Shown piece by piece: positions 9,676 through 17,330 of a DNA stretch of 31,771 nt (positions are counted from its first letter, which is position 1; each line of letters starts with the position of its first letter). This DNA comes from a virus: positions 1 through 31,771 of IMG/VR virus record IMGVR_UViG_3300047551_001470; one strand, given 5' to 3'. Below the pieces are notes generated by a model, which did no database searches, was not told the origin of the DNA, and worked only from the letters and a program-made list of their open reading frames with translations. A program made the position numbers and the translations under genes.

Positions 9676-10655
9676 GCGTCGATGCCGCGTGTACCGGCTG
9701 TTGTTGTAACCCGATGCTTCCATGTTGTGCTTGCCCAGATGCTGAGATTCGAGTTCGATTCAACCTCGTCCAACGCCGGCTTACGGTCGCGAACGCATCG
9801 ATACCGCTTGTCGACTGGACAGACACAATGCAATTCGATCTTCGACTGAAGCGAGTCGGTGGATCTTGTTACACGGCGCAAACATCCGTGCCAATTCAAG
9901 ATCTTGGATCAAGTTTTTCTTGGTTCCAACAGTATCGGGAATGGAGATTCCGAGGAGGAAATTCATCGTCTCCATTGGTTGAGTACTCTCCAAATTGCCG
10001 GCCCTGCTTGACTCCAGAATTGAAAGCCAACATCACCAAGTCGGCATCTGGATCGACATTCGAGTTTCTCCGGCTTCAGTGTGTCGAGTTGTATTGTCCA
10101 TGTTCTTTGACTCCGGCCGGATTTTTTTGGCAACTCGGAGTTCGCTTTTCTGGATTGACGACTCTTGCTGGTAGTTACTTCGGTCAAAATGTGGCATCGC
10201 AAACAACTCTGGCAAGAACCGATACTTTCTATGGCAGTGCTACGAACTGTCTGAATCCAAGCACATTTCTAAATTCTGCACACGAGTCTGATGCGATAGA
10301 AACTTTCCAGCCAATTTCGGCTAGTGCGCCGTGGCTTGGATTGAGAATTCCAGAAGAAGCAGATCTTCCTGATGGTTGCAACCCGATCACCTATCCGAGT
10401 TGGTATCCAAATCTCATTGAATGTTCAGGAACGCGAAGAGGAGATGTCGGCGAGCAGTCTGTGATTCCAGTCCCAAGCTTTACGAAGACATCTAAGCCTC
10501 AAATAGATTGTGCTCGTACTGTTTGTCTGCAACAGCCTCCAATTACCACCGTTGTATATGAATGCGGATGCGCGTCATACGGCGGAGATAATTCTCTTGG
10601 CTTGTATCAGTATAGAACCACGGTCAGCAGGTCGCTAAGTGCCTCAATCATCTAA
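9672..10655 (+). CDS. Cysteine-rich protein of unknown function, AT-richer than neighbours
   Basis: This 327-aa protein has an ATGA overlap. The N-terminus is strikingly Cys-rich (CTGCCCNPMLPCCAC at about 7-21), with further Cys pairs (CRPC, YCPC, ECGC) spread over the protein, about 20 in all. Aromatic residues and Trp are common (SSFSWFQQYREWRF). The DNA is visibly more AT-rich, and its codons are less biased to C/G at the third base, than in flanking genes, which suggests recent acquisition. Disulfide-rich or metal-binding surface protein are both possible. No family is recognised. Its place among tail-tip genes suggests exposure on the virion. Confidence 0.7.
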   Translation: MSVDAACTGCCCNPMLPCCACPDAEIRVRFNLVQRRLTVANASIPLVDWTDTMQFDLRLKRVGGSCYTAQTSVPIQDLGSSFSWFQQYREWRFRGGNSSSPLVEYSPNCRPCLTPELKANITKSASGSTFEFLRLQCVELYCPCSLTPAGFFWQLGVRFSGLTTLAGSYFGQNVASQTTLARTDTFYGSATNCLNPSTFLNSAHESDAIETFQPISASAPWLGLRIPEEADLPDGCNPITYPSWYPNLIECSGTRRGDVGEQSVIPVPSFTKTSKPQIDCARTVCLQQPPITTVVYECGCASYGGDNSLGLYQYRTTVSRSLSASII

Positions 10656-12305: not shown

Positions 12306-12552
12306 TGAGAGCAGCGAGGATGGCTCCTCGTGCTTGCCCGACGAGGAATCGAAGGTCATCGTCCTCGCATAGATCAAATGCCAGCGTGTAGAGGTCGAAC
12401 GACATCCACGAAATCTCGAGGATGTGAACGGCCTTCCATGCATCGCGCTTCGGCTCGGGCCTCAATCTCAGAGAGCGCAGGACTTCCGCAACGTGAGCGC
12501 GAACGCGCTTTGCTGCGAGTTTCTGCGGAATCTCAGAAAATTCTGTTGCCAT
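12250..12552 (-). CDS. Hypothetical protein, the only supported reverse-strand gene; possible regulator
   Basis: This frame gives 100 aa from ATG at 12552-12550. Codon use (CTC, GAG, ATC, CGC, AAG) matches the forward genes, and the protein looks natural: a charged helix (EIPQKLAAKRVRAHVAEVLRSL), then WKAVHILEISWMSFDLYTLAFDL, then DDDLRFLVGQARGAILAALI. The two same-region forward frames (12330 and the N-terminal extension at 12424) look like unconstrained translation. It is divergent from the RecT-like gene (60 bp between the ATGs) and convergent with the fibre gene. No helix-turn-helix is obvious and no good Shine-Dalgarno is seen, so certainty is moderate. Position at the border of late and early blocks suggests a regulatory role. 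Confidence 0.55.
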   Translation of the reverse strand: MATEFSEIPQKLAAKRVRAHVAEVLRSLRLRPEPKRDAWKAVHILEISWMSFDLYTLAFDLCEDDDLRFLVGQARGAILAALIKRSANRQSFRCRGSSRG

Positions 12553-12574
12553 TCCGATGATGTGTCGATACCCT
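12546..12574 (+). promoter_or_regulatory. Candidate promoter for the RecT-like gene
   Basis: TTGCCA (12546-12551), a 17-base spacer, then TACCCT (12569-12574). The -35 matches the sigma-70 consensus at 5 of 6; the -10 is poor (3 of 6) but resembles TATCCT in the candidate at 14946-14973. The -35 lies over the start codon of the reverse gene, so the two genes would compete. Confidence 0.35.
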
Positions 12575-12582
12575 GTCTGAAA

Positions 12583-12612
12583 TCGGACACGGAGTCCGAG
12601 CAAGGAGACCAC
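12583..12612 (+). promoter_or_regulatory. Leader hairpin with ACGGA loop before the ribosome binding site
   Basis: TCGGAC (12583-12588) and GTCCGA (12594-12599) form a perfect 6-bp stem with loop ACGGA. Four bases later comes GGAGACCAC and the ATG at 12613. A GGA-containing loop on a short stem, next to a Shine-Dalgarno AAGGA, is the classic dual-site layout for CsrA repression. A further TCCGAT at 12553 pairs with ATCGGA at 12582, so this could also be a DNA operator. Confidence 0.5.
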
Positions 12613-13506
12613 ATGTCACAGAATATCGTACTCGCATCGTCTGCGAGTGAATCGTCCGCTCTTTCGTTGGCTCAGGCTGGTACGAAAGCGCTTGAGGCTT
12701 ACATTGCAGCAGGCGACATCGGTCGCCTCGATCCGTCGCAGCGTATCTCGCTGTACAAGGCGGTCTGTGAGTCTCTCGGGCTGAATCCTTTGACCCAGCC
12801 GTTTGAATACCTCACGCTCAACGGCAAGGTACAGCTCTACGCGAAGAAATCCTGCACCGAGCAGCTTCGCCAGATTCACGGCGTTTCTGTTCTCGCGCTC
12901 GAGCAGGAGATCCGCGGCGACATCCTCTGTATGACTGCTCGAGTTCGCGATCGGTCTGGCCGCGAGGACATCGCGACTGGTGCGGTCAATCTCAAGGGTT
13001 TGGGCGGAGAGGCGCTCGCCAACGCCTACATGAAGTGCGAGACAAAGTCCAAGCGCCGAGCGACGCTTTCTATCTGTGGGTTGGCCGTGCTCGACGAAAC
13101 CGAGGTCGATTCAATTCAGGGAGCCAAGCCGGTTTCGGTCGAGGAGTTCCACCGATCAGAGCAGGTCGCGCCAAGTCCCGTCAAATCCCGCGAGGAGCGC
13201 CGCAGAGACACCGAGGAACTTCTTTCGCCTGTCCCGCAGTCTGAGCGCTCGAAGGCCGTGGAGGCCATTCCTGCGGCCCTAGACATCATCACGATCGACG
13301 CAGATGCAGCGATTGCCACTCTCGAGAACAAGCGCGGCCGCGTCTGGCGGGTGGATCAGAAGGGATGCGATAAGCCGTTCGCGATTCTCGACGAGCGGGT
13401 GGCATCTGGCCTCGAGGCGAATCAGGCGTTCGGTCTGGCATCGCGTGTCCGAATCGAGACAGTCGGATCGAAGTCCATCATCGTTGAGATCTTGGAGGAT
13501 CAATGA
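12613..13506 (+). CDS. RecT/Redbeta-like single-strand annealing protein (probable)
   Basis: The start is ATG 12613 with AAGGAG; the frame is open upstream to 12424, but that stretch looks non-coding. Length 297 aa. Residues about 45-170 carry the pattern of a phage recombination family: LYKAVCESLGLNPLTQPFEY, LNGKVQLYAKKSCTEQL, a GREDIATGAVNL strand, and the helix LANAYMKCETKSKRRATLS followed by ICGLAVLDETEV. The Lys/Arg-rich helix with a conserved Thr-Lys-x-Lys-Arg core is what is seen in RecT-type annealing proteins. Residues 180-240 form a charged linker, and 245-297 a small C-terminal domain (GRVWRVDQKGCDKPFAIL) that might bind a partner. It would pair single strands during recombination-dependent replication. 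The family assignment is from motif memory. Confidence 0.62.
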   Translation: MSQNIVLASSASESSALSLAQAGTKALEAYIAAGDIGRLDPSQRISLYKAVCESLGLNPLTQPFEYLTLNGKVQLYAKKSCTEQLRQIHGVSVLALEQEIRGDILCMTARVRDRSGREDIATGAVNLKGLGGEALANAYMKCETKSKRRATLSICGLAVLDETEVDSIQGAKPVSVEEFHRSEQVAPSPVKSREERRRDTEELLSPVPQSERSKAVEAIPAALDIITIDADAAIATLENKRGRVWRVDQKGCDKPFAILDERVASGLEANQAFGLASRVRIETVGSKSIIVEILEDQ

Positions 13507-14136: not shown

Positions 14137-14823
14137 ATGTTCCGCGACATGAAGTCGCGAGAAAGAGAGACTATGAATCTTGATCCGATGACCAAGAGCG
14201 ACCTCGCGAACTTCGCGATCATGGCCAAGCGCCATTTCCGCGGCGACTGGGATGATGCGCTGTGGAAGCTTGCGCTTCCGCGTATCGCTGCGGAGCCTCG
14301 CGAGATCGCGATGAGAGCGCTCGACGAATACGCGCTTCAATGGAGTGGCCCTCGAGCGCGATTCATTCCCTCGAAGTTCTTTCAGATCCTCGCGCAGGTT
14401 CGAGATCACATGGAAGGCGCTCGATCTGCTGAGCGTCGAATCGCCGACTCAACAGCTCGAATGATGGCTCTCGACGAGAACGCGAAAGCCGTCGAGGCTG
14501 ATTGGCTTGAGCGTCGCCGAGAGATCGAGATCGCGAATCCTCTGCATGTCGGAGAAGCGATCGACTACCTTCGCTCGCTCGGCTGGGGAAATCCTCCGCA
14601 GGATTTCAACGACTGGAGTCGAGCGTGGATTCTCGCCGTGAGCGATCTGGTGACAGATCGCCAGTGTCCGGCACTTGATCCTGCGACTGGATCGTTCGTC
14701 GCGAACGCGGGAGACGGCGGCTCGTTTCGAGCCGGTCGCATCCTGAATCCTGTGACGGCTCGCGAGTTCTACCGGAGGGCCGGAAAGGCCGCGCCGTTCG
14801 CGCTAGGTGCCACCGAGCGCTGA
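14137..14823 (+). CDS. Hypothetical protein, possibly replication-linked
   Basis: The start is uncertain. ATG 14137 (228 aa) has a GAGG site 8 bases upstream; ATG 14173 (216 aa, beginning MNLDPMTKSDL) is also plausible; the frame is open back to 14020. The protein is helical and charged: FAIMAKRHFRGDWDDALWKLAL, then a GPRARFIPSKFFQIL segment, a coiled-coil-like stretch (ARSAERRIADSTARMMALDENAK) and a C-terminal part with RILNPVTAREFYRRAG. As the first gene of the early operon it could act in DNA replication, but I recognise no motif. It has 192 bases of non-coding DNA after it. Confidence 0.68.
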   Translation: MFRDMKSRERETMNLDPMTKSDLANFAIMAKRHFRGDWDDALWKLALPRIAAEPREIAMRALDEYALQWSGPRARFIPSKFFQILAQVRDHMEGARSAERRIADSTARMMALDENAKAVEADWLERRREIEIANPLHVGEAIDYLRSLGWGNPPQDFNDWSRAWILAVSDLVTDRQCPALDPATGSFVANAGDGGSFRAGRILNPVTAREFYRRAGKAAPFALGATER

Positions 14824-14945: not shown

Positions 14946-14973
14946 TTGCATTCACCGATACTCTTGCTATCCT
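14946..14973 (+). promoter_or_regulatory. Candidate promoter before the 15016 gene
   Basis: TTGCAT (14946-14951), a 16-base spacer, TATCCT (14968-14973). The -35 is weak. The -10 resembles TACCCT at 12569. Transcription would start near 14980, just before the conserved TCAACC and leader hairpin. Confidence 0.4.
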
Positions 14974-14980
14974 CTGCGTA

Positions 14981-15015
14981 TCAACCGAGGCACGAAGCCT
15001 CAGAAGGAGACAGCC
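14981..15015 (+). promoter_or_regulatory. Leader hairpin upstream of GGAGACAGCC (copy 1)
   Basis: TCAACC, then GAGGC (14987-14991), loop ACGAA, GCCTC (14997-15001), AGAA, then the site GGAGACAGCC directly before ATG 15016. The same layout recurs at 15373-15409 with a matching two-sided base change in the stem (GCGGC/GCCGC), which supports a real RNA structure. Confidence 0.6.
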
Positions 15016-15315
15016 ATGTTCATGACTCAAACCGAAGTGGATGCCGTTCAGAAGTACGTCGCGATGAGCCGCGATCGAGTCGCGCTCGGTTCAATGGGTG
15101 ACAACCTCGACCGAGATGCGTATCGCGAGGCTCGTGAGATCGCCGAACTTGCTTGCCGAAATACAACCAAGCGAAACGAGGAACTTTACCAAGTCTGGCT
15201 CGCTTGCAGCGATGAAGGTCGGAAGCAGATGGAGGCCGATGTTGAATCAGGCGAGTACGCCAAGCGAATGAACTACGTCGACTTCTGGCACGACGTTATG
15301 AAGTATCTCAAGTGA
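15016..15315 (+). CDS. Hypothetical small acidic protein
   Basis: This 99-aa protein starts at ATG 15016 behind a strong GGAGAC site and the leader hairpin. It is entirely helical in appearance and charged (EVDAVQKYVAMSRDRVAL, DAYREAREIAELACRNTTKR, YVDFWHDVMKYLK). No domain is recognised. It has its own candidate promoter and is followed by a hairpin, so it may be transcribed as a single-gene unit early in infection. Confidence 0.72.
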   Translation: MFMTQTEVDAVQKYVAMSRDRVALGSMGDNLDRDAYREAREIAELACRNTTKRNEELYQVWLACSDEGRKQMEADVESGEYAKRMNYVDFWHDVMKYLK

Positions 15316-15327
15316 CGACTCGGAACG

Positions 15328-15351
15328 GGGGAGCCTCGCGAGAGGCTCCCC
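15328..15351 (+). terminator. Stable stem-loop after the 15016 gene (weak terminator or processing site)
   Basis: GGGGAGCCTC (15328-15337) pairs perfectly with GAGGCTCCCC (15342-15351) around a GCGA tetraloop. No U-tract follows, so it may not stop transcription fully. It may serve as an mRNA-stabilising end or an RNase site. Confidence 0.5.
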
Positions 15352-15372
15352 GACTCCGCGCCGTTGCGGAAT

Positions 15373-15409
15373 TCAACCGCGGCAAGATGCCGCAGAACTG
15401 GAGACAGCC
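15373..15409 (+). promoter_or_regulatory. Leader hairpin upstream of GGAGACAGCC (copy 2)
   Basis: TCAACC, then GCGGC (15379-15383), loop AAGAT, GCCGC (15389-15393), AGAACT, GGAGACAGCC, ATG 15410. It aligns closely with 14981-15015. The A-T pair in the middle of the first stem is C-G here, a compensatory change. Confidence 0.6.
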
Positions 15410-15631
15410 ATGGAACTCACATCACAAGAAATCGATTCCGCGATTGTGCAGATCAACGCGCGCGTCCGCGAGCCGTACCGATGCGCTTATGGAGACTTCC
15501 CTTGGCTCGACGCGACGAACTTGGATAGTTGGATTCAAGCGCTTGAGCAGGATGGTGAGGTCGAAATCCAAGCGTTCTACACGCGCTCTGGACGAACGGA
15601 GCGCGTTCGCCGCCCAGGAGGTTCGCGATGA
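15410..15631 (+). CDS. Hypothetical small protein
   Basis: This 73-aa protein is translated from a GGAGAC site preceded by leader hairpin copy 2. It has an N-terminal helix (TSQEIDSAIVQINARV), an aromatic middle (YRCAYGDFPWLD, DSWIQALEQDGEVEIQAFY) and a basic end. No family is recognised. It overlaps the lysozyme gene by 4 bp (ATGA), so the two are co-translated. Confidence 0.7.
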   Translation: MELTSQEIDSAIVQINARVREPYRCAYGDFPWLDATNLDSWIQALEQDGEVEIQAFYTRSGRTERVRRPGGSR

Positions 15632-16029
15632 CGCTCCTCCTCATCCTTTCTCTCGTACCGCCGCCGGCCGCGCTCGACACTCGACCGATCCTTGATGCGA
15701 TTCGCGTCGTCGAGACCGGAGCTGAATCTGATCCCGACCATGCCATCGGCGACGGCGGAGACGCACTTGGCGCGTACCAGATCCATCGCTCGTACTGGCT
15801 CGATGCCACCGAGAAAGACCCTGCGCTCCGAGCGCTTGGATACGAGTCGGTGACAGATCGCTCCGTCGCCGAGCGCGTTGTCATCGCGTACCTCACTCGC
15901 TACGCGCCACGATGGGATCTCGACACCGTCTCGCGAATCCACAACGGAGGACCGAAAGGCCACACCAAGAACAGCACCAAAGGCTACGCGGCGAAAGTCG
16001 CGAAGGCCGCGAAGGAGGCACGACAATGA
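15628..16029 (+). CDS. Endolysin: lysozyme / transglycosylase-like protein with signal sequence
   Basis: This 133-aa protein would cleave peptidoglycan. The N-terminus (MTLLLILSLVPPPAALD) is a short hydrophobic export signal. The core shows a lysozyme-like pattern: AIRVVETGAE with the probable catalytic Glu at 29, GDGGDALGAYQIHRSYW (41-57), and RIHNGGPKGH (103-112) followed by TKGYAAKVAKA. These are features of small transglycosylase/muramidase families in which a GDGG..GxYQI block follows the Glu. A signal sequence means the enzyme could leave the cytoplasm without a holin (signal-arrest-release or Sec export). It lies far from the holin and spanin genes at 22877-23618. Confidence 0.75.
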   Translation: MTLLLILSLVPPPAALDTRPILDAIRVVETGAESDPDHAIGDGGDALGAYQIHRSYWLDATEKDPALRALGYESVTDRSVAERVVIAYLTRYAPRWDLDTVSRIHNGGPKGHTKNSTKGYAAKVAKAAKEARQ

Positions 16030-16840: not shown

Positions 16841-17133
16841 ATCGAGATCACCACGCACACACGGCCATGATGCGAGCCAAGCGCAAGGAGCGAGCGGCGA
16901 TCGTCAAAGTCAATCGCAGGAAATATCTCTCAAAATGCGTCGCTCGAGGCATTGAATCGATTCTTCAGCGCATCACAGCAGAGACCGAGGATGAATTTCA
17001 CGCGACGAAATGGCTTCGCGACATGCTGAGTGATAGGATGTTGAAGCTGTCCGCGCAGGATGCGCCGTCTCCGCAGCGCTCCGAGGGAGGAGAGAGCCAG
17101 TCTCTCTCCTCTCTTGGGGAGGAGGCCCGATGA
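16837..17133 (+). CDS. Hypothetical basic protein
   Basis: GTG start at 16837 (GTGA overlap); 98 aa. The first 45 residues are strongly basic and helical (MMRAKRKERAAIVKVNRRKYLSK), which could bind nucleic acid. A middle helix follows (TEDEFHATKWLRDMLSDRML). The last 25 residues are low complexity and coincide with a 10-bp inverted repeat in the DNA. No family is recognised. It overlaps the CsrA-like gene by 4 bp. Confidence 0.65.
   Translation: MNRDHHAHTAMMRAKRKERAAIVKVNRRKYLSKCVARGIESILQRITAETEDEFHATKWLRDMLSDRMLKLSAQDAPSPQRSEGGESQSLSSLGEEAR
17087..17111 (+). promoter_or_regulatory. 10-bp hairpin just upstream of the CsrA-like gene
   Basis: GAGGAGAGAG (17087-17096) pairs perfectly with CTCTCTCCTC (17102-17111) around CCAGT. 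It ends 18 bases before ATG 17130 and lies in the coding end of the upstream gene. The CTCTCC arm could instead pair with the GGGGAGGAGG site of the CsrA-like gene, so this may be a switch controlling that start. Confidence 0.45.
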
Positions 17134-17330
17134 AGCCACAACGAAATCCACGTCGAGGTCGGCTGATTCGCGAGATGAAGGCCGACGAAGCAGACCGTAT
17201 CTACATCGAGCGAGACGGTGTCACGCTCGGATCGGTGCGAGTGATCGAAATCAACAATACCGACTGTCGAATCGCGTTCGAGTTCGATCGCGATATTCGC
17301 ATCGCACGGAAGGAGGCGGAGTCATGCTAG
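17130..17330 (+). CDS. CsrA-like RNA-binding protein (probable)
   Basis: This 66-aa protein has a strong GGAGGAGG site and an ATGA overlap. Residues 23-62 align with the CsrA core: DRIYIERDGVTLGSVRVIEI, then CRIAFEFDRDIRIARKE. Arg47 and Arg60 are 13 residues apart, exactly like R31 and R44 of E. coli CsrA, the latter being the key RNA-contact Arg in the VHREE motif. Five short strands are predicted. The N-terminus differs: it has a basic 16-residue lead (PQRNPRRGRLIREMK) instead of the LILTRRVGE start. CsrA dimers bind GGA in hairpin loops near ribosome binding sites, and such sites exist here (12583-12612, 1200-1215). The homology is judged by eye and needs a profile test. Confidence 0.5.
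   Translation: MKPQRNPRRGRLIREMKADEADRIYIERDGVTLGSVRVIEINNTDCRIAFEFDRDIRIARKEAESC

Follow-up and report, generated by a model that had tools for sequence, protein, structure and literature searches.

Leader Hairpins in the Window

The window, i.e., the whole stretch of DNA analyzed here (31,771 bases), is the record of an uncultured siphovirus-like virus. Four early genes starting at positions 12613, 14173, 15016, and 15410 were found to carry leaders built to the same plan, in which a hairpin consisting of a 5–6 bp stem and an ANGRH pentaloop is located a few bases 5' of the ribosome-binding site. The loops are, in order, ACGGA, ATGAA, ACGAA, and AAGAT, and each hairpin is followed by a short A-rich linker, GAGAC, and ATG, the GAGAC being extended to GGAGAC in three of the four leaders. 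These four genes, with their leaders and predicted promoters, are all on the + strand, as is the small CsrA-like gene described further below.

The first hairpin (12583–12599), TCGGAC-ACGGA-GTCCGA, is followed by GCAA-GGAGACCAC-ATG, with the ribosome-binding site GGAGAC at 12604–12609, and precedes a 297-aa gene (12613–13506) which is conserved throughout the lineage and has no Pfam or PHROG match; by our own reading of the sequence, its product may be recombinase-like. The first-pass annotation attributed the same plan to the leader at 12583–12612, and this assignment holds (38.1 bits, E 5e-9). A promoter (TTGCCA, 17 nt, TACCCT) is predicted at 12546–12574, the onset of the hairpin being 9 nt past the -10 box, the position of which agrees with that observed in the relatives (TATAGT/TAGGAT at an equal distance). 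Orthologous leaders are present in 24 relatives. The second hairpin (14143–14159; 25.2 bits, E 4e-5), CGCGAC-ATGAA-GTCGCG, is followed by AGAAAGAGAGACT-ATG and is an additional copy not previously noted. It lies upstream of a 216-aa early gene with no assigned function (14173–14823), and its orthologous leaders in 16 relatives have stems which are mostly different yet paired.

The two near-identical hairpin leaders originally described, those of genes 15016 and 15410, were both confirmed from the sequence. The third hairpin (14987–15001; 43.8 bits, E 1e-10), GAGGC-ACGAA-GCCTC, is followed by AGAA-GGAGACAGCC-ATG and lies about 7 nt into the transcript predicted from the promoter at 14946–14973 (TTGCAT, 16 nt, TATCCT; predicted +1 near 14980); the ribosome-binding site GGAGAC is located at 15006–15011 and the 99-aa gene, which has no assigned function, at 15016–15315. 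The fourth hairpin (15379–15393; 38.4 bits, E 4e-9), GCGGC-AAGAT-GCCGC, is followed by AGAACT-GGAGACAGCC-ATG, with the ribosome-binding site GGAGAC at 15400–15405 and a 73-aa gene, again without any assigned function, at 15410–15631. It is intercistronic, no promoter having been seen, and the hairpin is present in 8/8 of the orthologous genes. The compensatory change from A-T to C-G reported between these two leaders is present, but it affects the second pair from the base of the stem and not the middle pair. A strong hairpin without any T-run, GGGGAGCCTCGCGAGAGGCTCCCC (15328–15351), is located between gene 15016 and the fourth leader, and hairpins of the type GGAGCCTC-TTCG-GAGGCTCC occur 5' of intercistronic leaders in the relatives L005, L008, L010, L014, L017, and L020; hairpins of the kind found at 15328–15351 possibly form a 3' end or a processing site turning the next leader into a 5' end. 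Within the same early-gene block, a 133-aa protein (15628–16029) shows a match to Pfam Destabilase (lysozyme-like) scoring 29.5 bits, which is above the cut-off, and is a possible endolysin.

The site at 1723–1740, which had been put forward as a further member, was dropped from the family because it gives an E value of only 0.22 in a different register, its loop is not of the ANGR form, and in the orthologous leaders only GCC/GGC is kept with unrelated loops, or is lost. Just upstream of this site, a terminator-like hairpin, GGGCCGGAGCA...TGCTCCGGCCC-TATCATTTT (1679–1720), follows the gene ending at 1651.

Scanning the window with the loop rule yielded four copies on the + strand and none on the - strand, and among 300 dinucleotide shuffles of the window, 285 contained no leader and 15 contained one; the rule was learned from the relatives and was fixed only after these had been seen. 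The core-stem probability obtained with ViennaRNA ranged from 0.77 to 1.00 in the four leaders.

Covariation and Distribution in Relatives

The 297-aa protein has 26 relatives among viral contigs, and a few more were detected by alignment. In the regions upstream of these genes, which were chosen by protein homology alone, the hairpin was found again, with different stem letters and the pairing maintained: GCGGAC/GTCCGC, TCGGAC/GTCCGA, GCGGC/GCCGC, GCCTCGC/GCGAGGC, TCGCCGC/GCGGCGA, and GCGGGA/TCCCGC. In an alignment of 36 leaders, 95.4% of the cells were paired, and none of the unpaired stem changes which, according to the first-pass annotation, would have refuted a selected structure were seen, the five core pairs being standard in 36/36 leaders (100% paired). 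These percentages are biased upward, since only leaders chosen for having hairpins were aligned. Double compensatory changes occur at 6/6 stem pairs (83 cells), and the covariation score is 0.967, as compared with 0.232 ± 0.033 when shuffled and at most 0.143 with slid partners. The idea of a selected RNA structure is therefore supported by compensatory changes at every pair, and judging from the sequence evidence, the leaders almost certainly constitute a selected RNA element.

Alternatively, the repeats might lack any RNA function and stem from a leader cassette that was duplicated recently, or might be palindromic DNA operators. Leaders do seem to have been exchanged between genes, the same 140-aa protein being preceded by two quite different intact leaders in L008 (12598) and L017 (12297), and a GTGTCCGC-AA-GCGGACAC palindrome, which could be an operator in the DNA or another way for the 5' arm to pair, spans the predicted +1 of the promoters of 297-aa-type genes in L008–L020 (near 9945–9975 in L008, for example). 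However, the stems differ between copies and between orthologs with the pairing kept, and the orientation and the spacing to the start codon are strict, so that in the light of the covariation this explanation is hardly credible.

With a covariance model built from the 36 leaders, 27 lineage loci (423 kb) yielded 104 copies at E ≤ 0.026, every one of them on the + strand of its locus, which is the early-gene strand. Nearly all these copies are located directly 5' of open reading frames (ORFs), in about 40 gene families. Some of them had served to seed the model and are bound to match it, which is not so in the case of the unseeded ones (the 216-aa gene family, for example). In 53 control loci of phage DNA (724 kb), the best score was 16.7 bits and no convincing copy was found. 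The search in related phages which had been proposed as a check thus had a positive outcome, and the supposition of a cis-regulatory RNA family of this phage was upheld as far as the family is concerned, but the family is wider than supposed, since it extends to the whole terminase-defined lineage, and regulation has not been shown. A structure-blind test covered 23 families of orthologous genes. Two of these carry the motif hairpin almost throughout (8/8 and 15/17 members), and the 12613 family, where clustering and start calls were mixed, carries it frequently; the hairpin was near zero in the other 20 families, which include structural genes. The stems of the 216-aa family differ between orthologs (CGCGAC/GTCGCG, CCCGGC/GCCGGA, and TCTGGA/TCCAGA beside TCTGGC/GCCAGA). 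The first DNA pattern used, ACGGAGN{3,7}AGAAGGAGACA, retrieved only known members plus chance matches without stems; scanning with the GCGGC version of the pattern brought up additional phages, not all of which have the 297-aa protein.

Several peculiarities were observed in individual loci. Doubled leaders occur in L021–L023, L083, L084, and L087. The hairpins stand in tandem in one leader at L083:6364–6414, L084:7862–7911, and L087:7866–7917, and in L021–L023 before the leaders at about 9870–9890; in L083, L084, and L087, the second loop is TCGGA and the stems are compensated (GCGATC/GATCGC, AGGATC/GATCCT). In L180, L192, and L203 (records G028, G031, and G033), from which the lineage terminase is absent, there is a single leader of the type GCGGC-ACGAW-GCCGC-AGAA-AGGAGAGACACATG, which reflects either horizontal transfer or convergence. 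Small hydrophobic ORFs of 27–34 aa are found directly behind the leader at L009:9918, L016:9843, L021:9898, L023:9919, L024:3450, L033:5226, and L038:4640; in many relatives, though not in the window, they lie just 5' of the conserved 297-aa-type gene.

The leader-bearing phages nearly all share one terminase lineage. Among isolated phages, we found no DNA match to the window and no match for the small CsrA-like protein described below, and the terminase showed less than 60% identity to every record (24–38% in the twelve listed). No cultured member of the lineage was found in the collections, and when 84,980 genomes of bacteria and archaea were searched for a host, neither the 297-aa protein nor the leader pattern gave any match. 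The literature, of which the coverage was incomplete, documents csrA genes in phages (PMC7366521) but yielded no comparable phage regulon. On these comparative grounds, the hairpins are a new family of small RNA elements located just 5' of many early genes in a lineage of uncultured phages.

Anatomy of the Element

The lineage-wide leader consists of a 5–8 bp stem, the loop A(N)GR(H), an A-rich linker of about 2–9 nt, the ribosome-binding site (G)GAGAC, and the start codon. The first base of the loop is A and the third base is G in 102/102 copies, the fourth base is a purine (70 G and 32 A, the latter about 30%), the second may be any base and is absent in 19, and the last is A, T, or C. About 90 leaders have a C-G closing pair. 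GGA is present in most loops but missing in ACGAA, AAGAT, ATGA, ATGAT, and ACGAT. The GAGAC 5' of the start codon is kept even in the absence of the classical GGAG (GCGAGAC, TCGAGAC, GAGAGAC), and a second GGA is thus present at the ribosome-binding site in the GGAGAC copies and absent in these others. Several leaders contain no GGA at all (e.g., L039:8441), including those of G024, the record with the most CsrA-like protein. RNA folding gave a median core-stem probability of 0.996 and a mostly open ribosome-binding site. No match above threshold was obtained among 4227 Rfam models.

A -10-like box ends 5–12 nt 5' of the hairpin in 49/104 copies and hardly ever occurs at other distances; because of this clustering, these 49 hairpins are predicted to be located right at the start of the mRNA (about +1 to +7). 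The remaining leaders, amounting to about half, are intercistronic and no promoter was seen. The main rival to recognition of the leaders by a protein is based on these features: the hairpin may be simply a 5' stabilizer which blocks decay depending on the 5' end and keeps the ribosome-binding site open without any dedicated reader, as in the ompA leader and in engineered 5' hairpins. The position of the -10-like boxes, the strong stems, and the mostly open ribosome-binding site are in keeping with such a role, which nevertheless would not call for an invariant A and G in the loop, does not account for the intercistronic half of the leaders, and leaves unexplained why the element occurs on early genes and not on the structural genes of the same phages. 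We regard it as unlikely, but by no means negligible.

The element also recalls transcription antitermination or pausing elements (nut boxB- or put-like) acting near early promoters: many copies are promoter-proximal, and boxB likewise has a 5-bp stem and a 5-nt loop. The copies are situated, however, a few nt 5' of the ribosome-binding sites of successive genes, often with no promoter nearby, and no conserved boxA-like block was seen beside them in the alignments, and we give this possibility very little weight.

The loop A(N)GR(H) is similar to A(N)GGAX, the site bound by CsrA/RsmE, which likewise has an optional N and a C-G closing pair (PMC4005645). This similarity is part of the case for a CsrA-like reader encoded by the phage, which is our preferred reading (see below). 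The reader might, however, be the CsrA/RsmA of the host, used or titrated by the phage, the phage-encoded 66-aa protein described below being either unrelated or a modulator. CsrA is widespread in bacteria, most of the loops carry A(N)GGA, and most of the ribosome-binding sites carry the second GGA. This reading has to contend with the loops (ACGAA, AAGAT, ATGA, ACGAT) and the whole leaders lacking GGA, and neither the host nor its csrA gene has been identified; it seems distinctly improbable, more so than passive stabilization.

A Small CsrA-Like Protein Encoded in the Early Region

A protein of 60–70 aa encoded in the same early region as the leaders is conserved in the lineage. In the window, it consists of 66 aa (17130–17330) and is not itself under an ANGR leader. 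At E ≤ 1, the window protein matches no Pfam family other than CsrA (PF02599; E 0.001; 18.6–19.5 bits), and the score is below the curated cut-off (19.5 bits vs 27). Matches were also obtained with a close relative of this protein and with diverged members in G021 and G024, the latter scoring 23.7 bits; the best E value in the family was 1.6e-5, and all the scores are sub-threshold. The alignment with CsrA runs through the R44 region, with KVRMAFCCDKRLRIMREEI facing QVRIGVNAPKEVSVHREEI, for example, and five strands are predicted in the order expected of CsrA. In hhalign comparisons with CsrA including three bridging members, P was 1.1e-4 in one direction and 0.009 in the other, whereas without these members it was 0.02–0.12, which is not significant (reversed control, 0.29). 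No CsrA was present among the Foldseek matches listed for two models, and single-chain models cannot form the swapped dimer. For a relative, Foldseek ranked the YqeH GTPase first by probability (prob 0.95, E 0.9, TM 0.61), a match which was noted but was not significant. Searching the PDB sequences with profiles of the small protein gave only chance matches or matches with repetitive proteins. Since the profile comparison is only suggestive and the structure comparison gave no CsrA among the matches listed, we have called the protein CsrA-like rather than CsrA.

The protein is encoded in 10/10 of the records with three or more leaders that were found by the RNA pattern alone. The contrast with records having one leader (0/7) was rejected as a statistical association because most of the records share the terminase; the single-leader records G029, G035, and G036 are fragments in which the leader is close to the contig end. 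As the hairpin and the protein occur together in one terminase-defined lineage, common descent accounts for this no less well than a functional link would.

A Proposed Shared Early-Gene Operator

Recognition by a protein is suggested by a loop that is conserved while its stem varies freely, and it is probable, although inferred without binding data, that the leaders are read in this way. That the reader is the phage's own CsrA-like protein is likewise an inference, and it falls somewhat short of an even chance. On the evidence of the sequence, one cis-acting RNA element forms the common 5' leader of early genes across the whole phage lineage; in the mechanism we propose, a small RNA-binding protein would grip the loop, reach the adjacent ribosome-binding site, and either compete with the ribosome or protect the mRNA. 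A single protein would thus set the translation and/or the lifetime of the whole early set, which would rise and fall together. In the simplest version, the control would be repression, the early genes being shut down as the protein accumulates, but the direction of control is not known. The hairpin may also protect the mRNA itself, because it is predicted to be at the very 5' end in about half of the leaders.

We give the chain as a whole, in which a shared early-gene RNA operator is read by the CsrA-like protein of the phage, a probability of about 0.45, the regulation and the binding being inferred; no expression, binding, or 5'-end data are available. The CsrA reading is weakened by the tenuous relationship of the protein and by the fact that about 30% of the loops lack the GGA which classical CsrA needs. 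Somewhat more tentative still is the possibility that these phages may have a self-contained Csr system, in which a far-diverged CsrA and several early-gene operators of its own per genome, no longer requiring A(N)GGA but only A(N)GRH in the loop, would form a post-transcriptional early switch.

In DNA phages, the timing of gene expression is generally attributed mainly to transcription. The presence of one small RNA element across about 40 gene families of a lineage suggests that the early genes share one post-transcriptional control. If the leaders are read by the phage's own protein, they would illustrate how a phage can take over a global regulator of bacteria as a switch for its private use, and the loops and proteins occurring as a natural series would make it possible to dissect the specificity of the CsrA type. 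The leader element can also serve as a marker of early genes in uncultured phages.

Comparison With Known Systems

In Csr systems, the dimer can be brought to the GGA of the ribosome-binding site by a GGA hairpin which lies upstream and binds it with high affinity; tight binding of RsmE to the pentaloops AGGGA and AAGGA has also been reported (PMC4005645). The phage leaders have the same layout and share with the CsrA/RsmA/RsmE leaders of the hcnA, glgC, and flhDC type (the flhDC leader being stabilized by CsrA) an A(N)GGA-like loop, the C-G closing pair, the optional N, and, in most copies, the second GGA. They differ from them in that the loop has 5 nt (or 4) instead of 6, the second G is replaced by A in about 30% of cases, many genes of a single small genome carry the same element, and the regulator has not been shown.

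As regards the protein, csrA genes were identified in 30/2517 phage genomes, and the accessible part of that survey describes no cognate leaders for them (PMC7366521). In both cases a small protein of the CsrA family, or here a CsrA-like one, is encoded by the phage, but the known products are close to bacterial CsrA, mostly about 50–70% identical, whereas the present family is far diverged and a longer stretch separates its strands 2 and 3. RsmN, unlike the present protein, contains a helical insertion, and the structure of its complex with RNA has been solved (PMC3791407). RsmN/RsmF is comparable in being a diverged CsrA whose match to E. coli CsrA is weak too (20 bits) and limited to strands 3–5.

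In the case of the coat operators of RNA phages and of T4 RegA/RegB, a phage protein acts at the ribosome-binding sites of phage genes, RegB cutting GGAG and RegA binding largely unstructured sites; the loop of the present leaders and the protein folds involved are different. The nut boxB of lambda occurs on early transcripts and has a GNRA-like loop, a boxA partner, and no tie to ribosome-binding sites, and the phage leaders, having an ANGRH loop and no conserved boxA-like block, do not fulfill the boxB/nut criteria. The leaders probably belong to a known type, that of protein-binding leader hairpins, their lineage-wide use being what is new.
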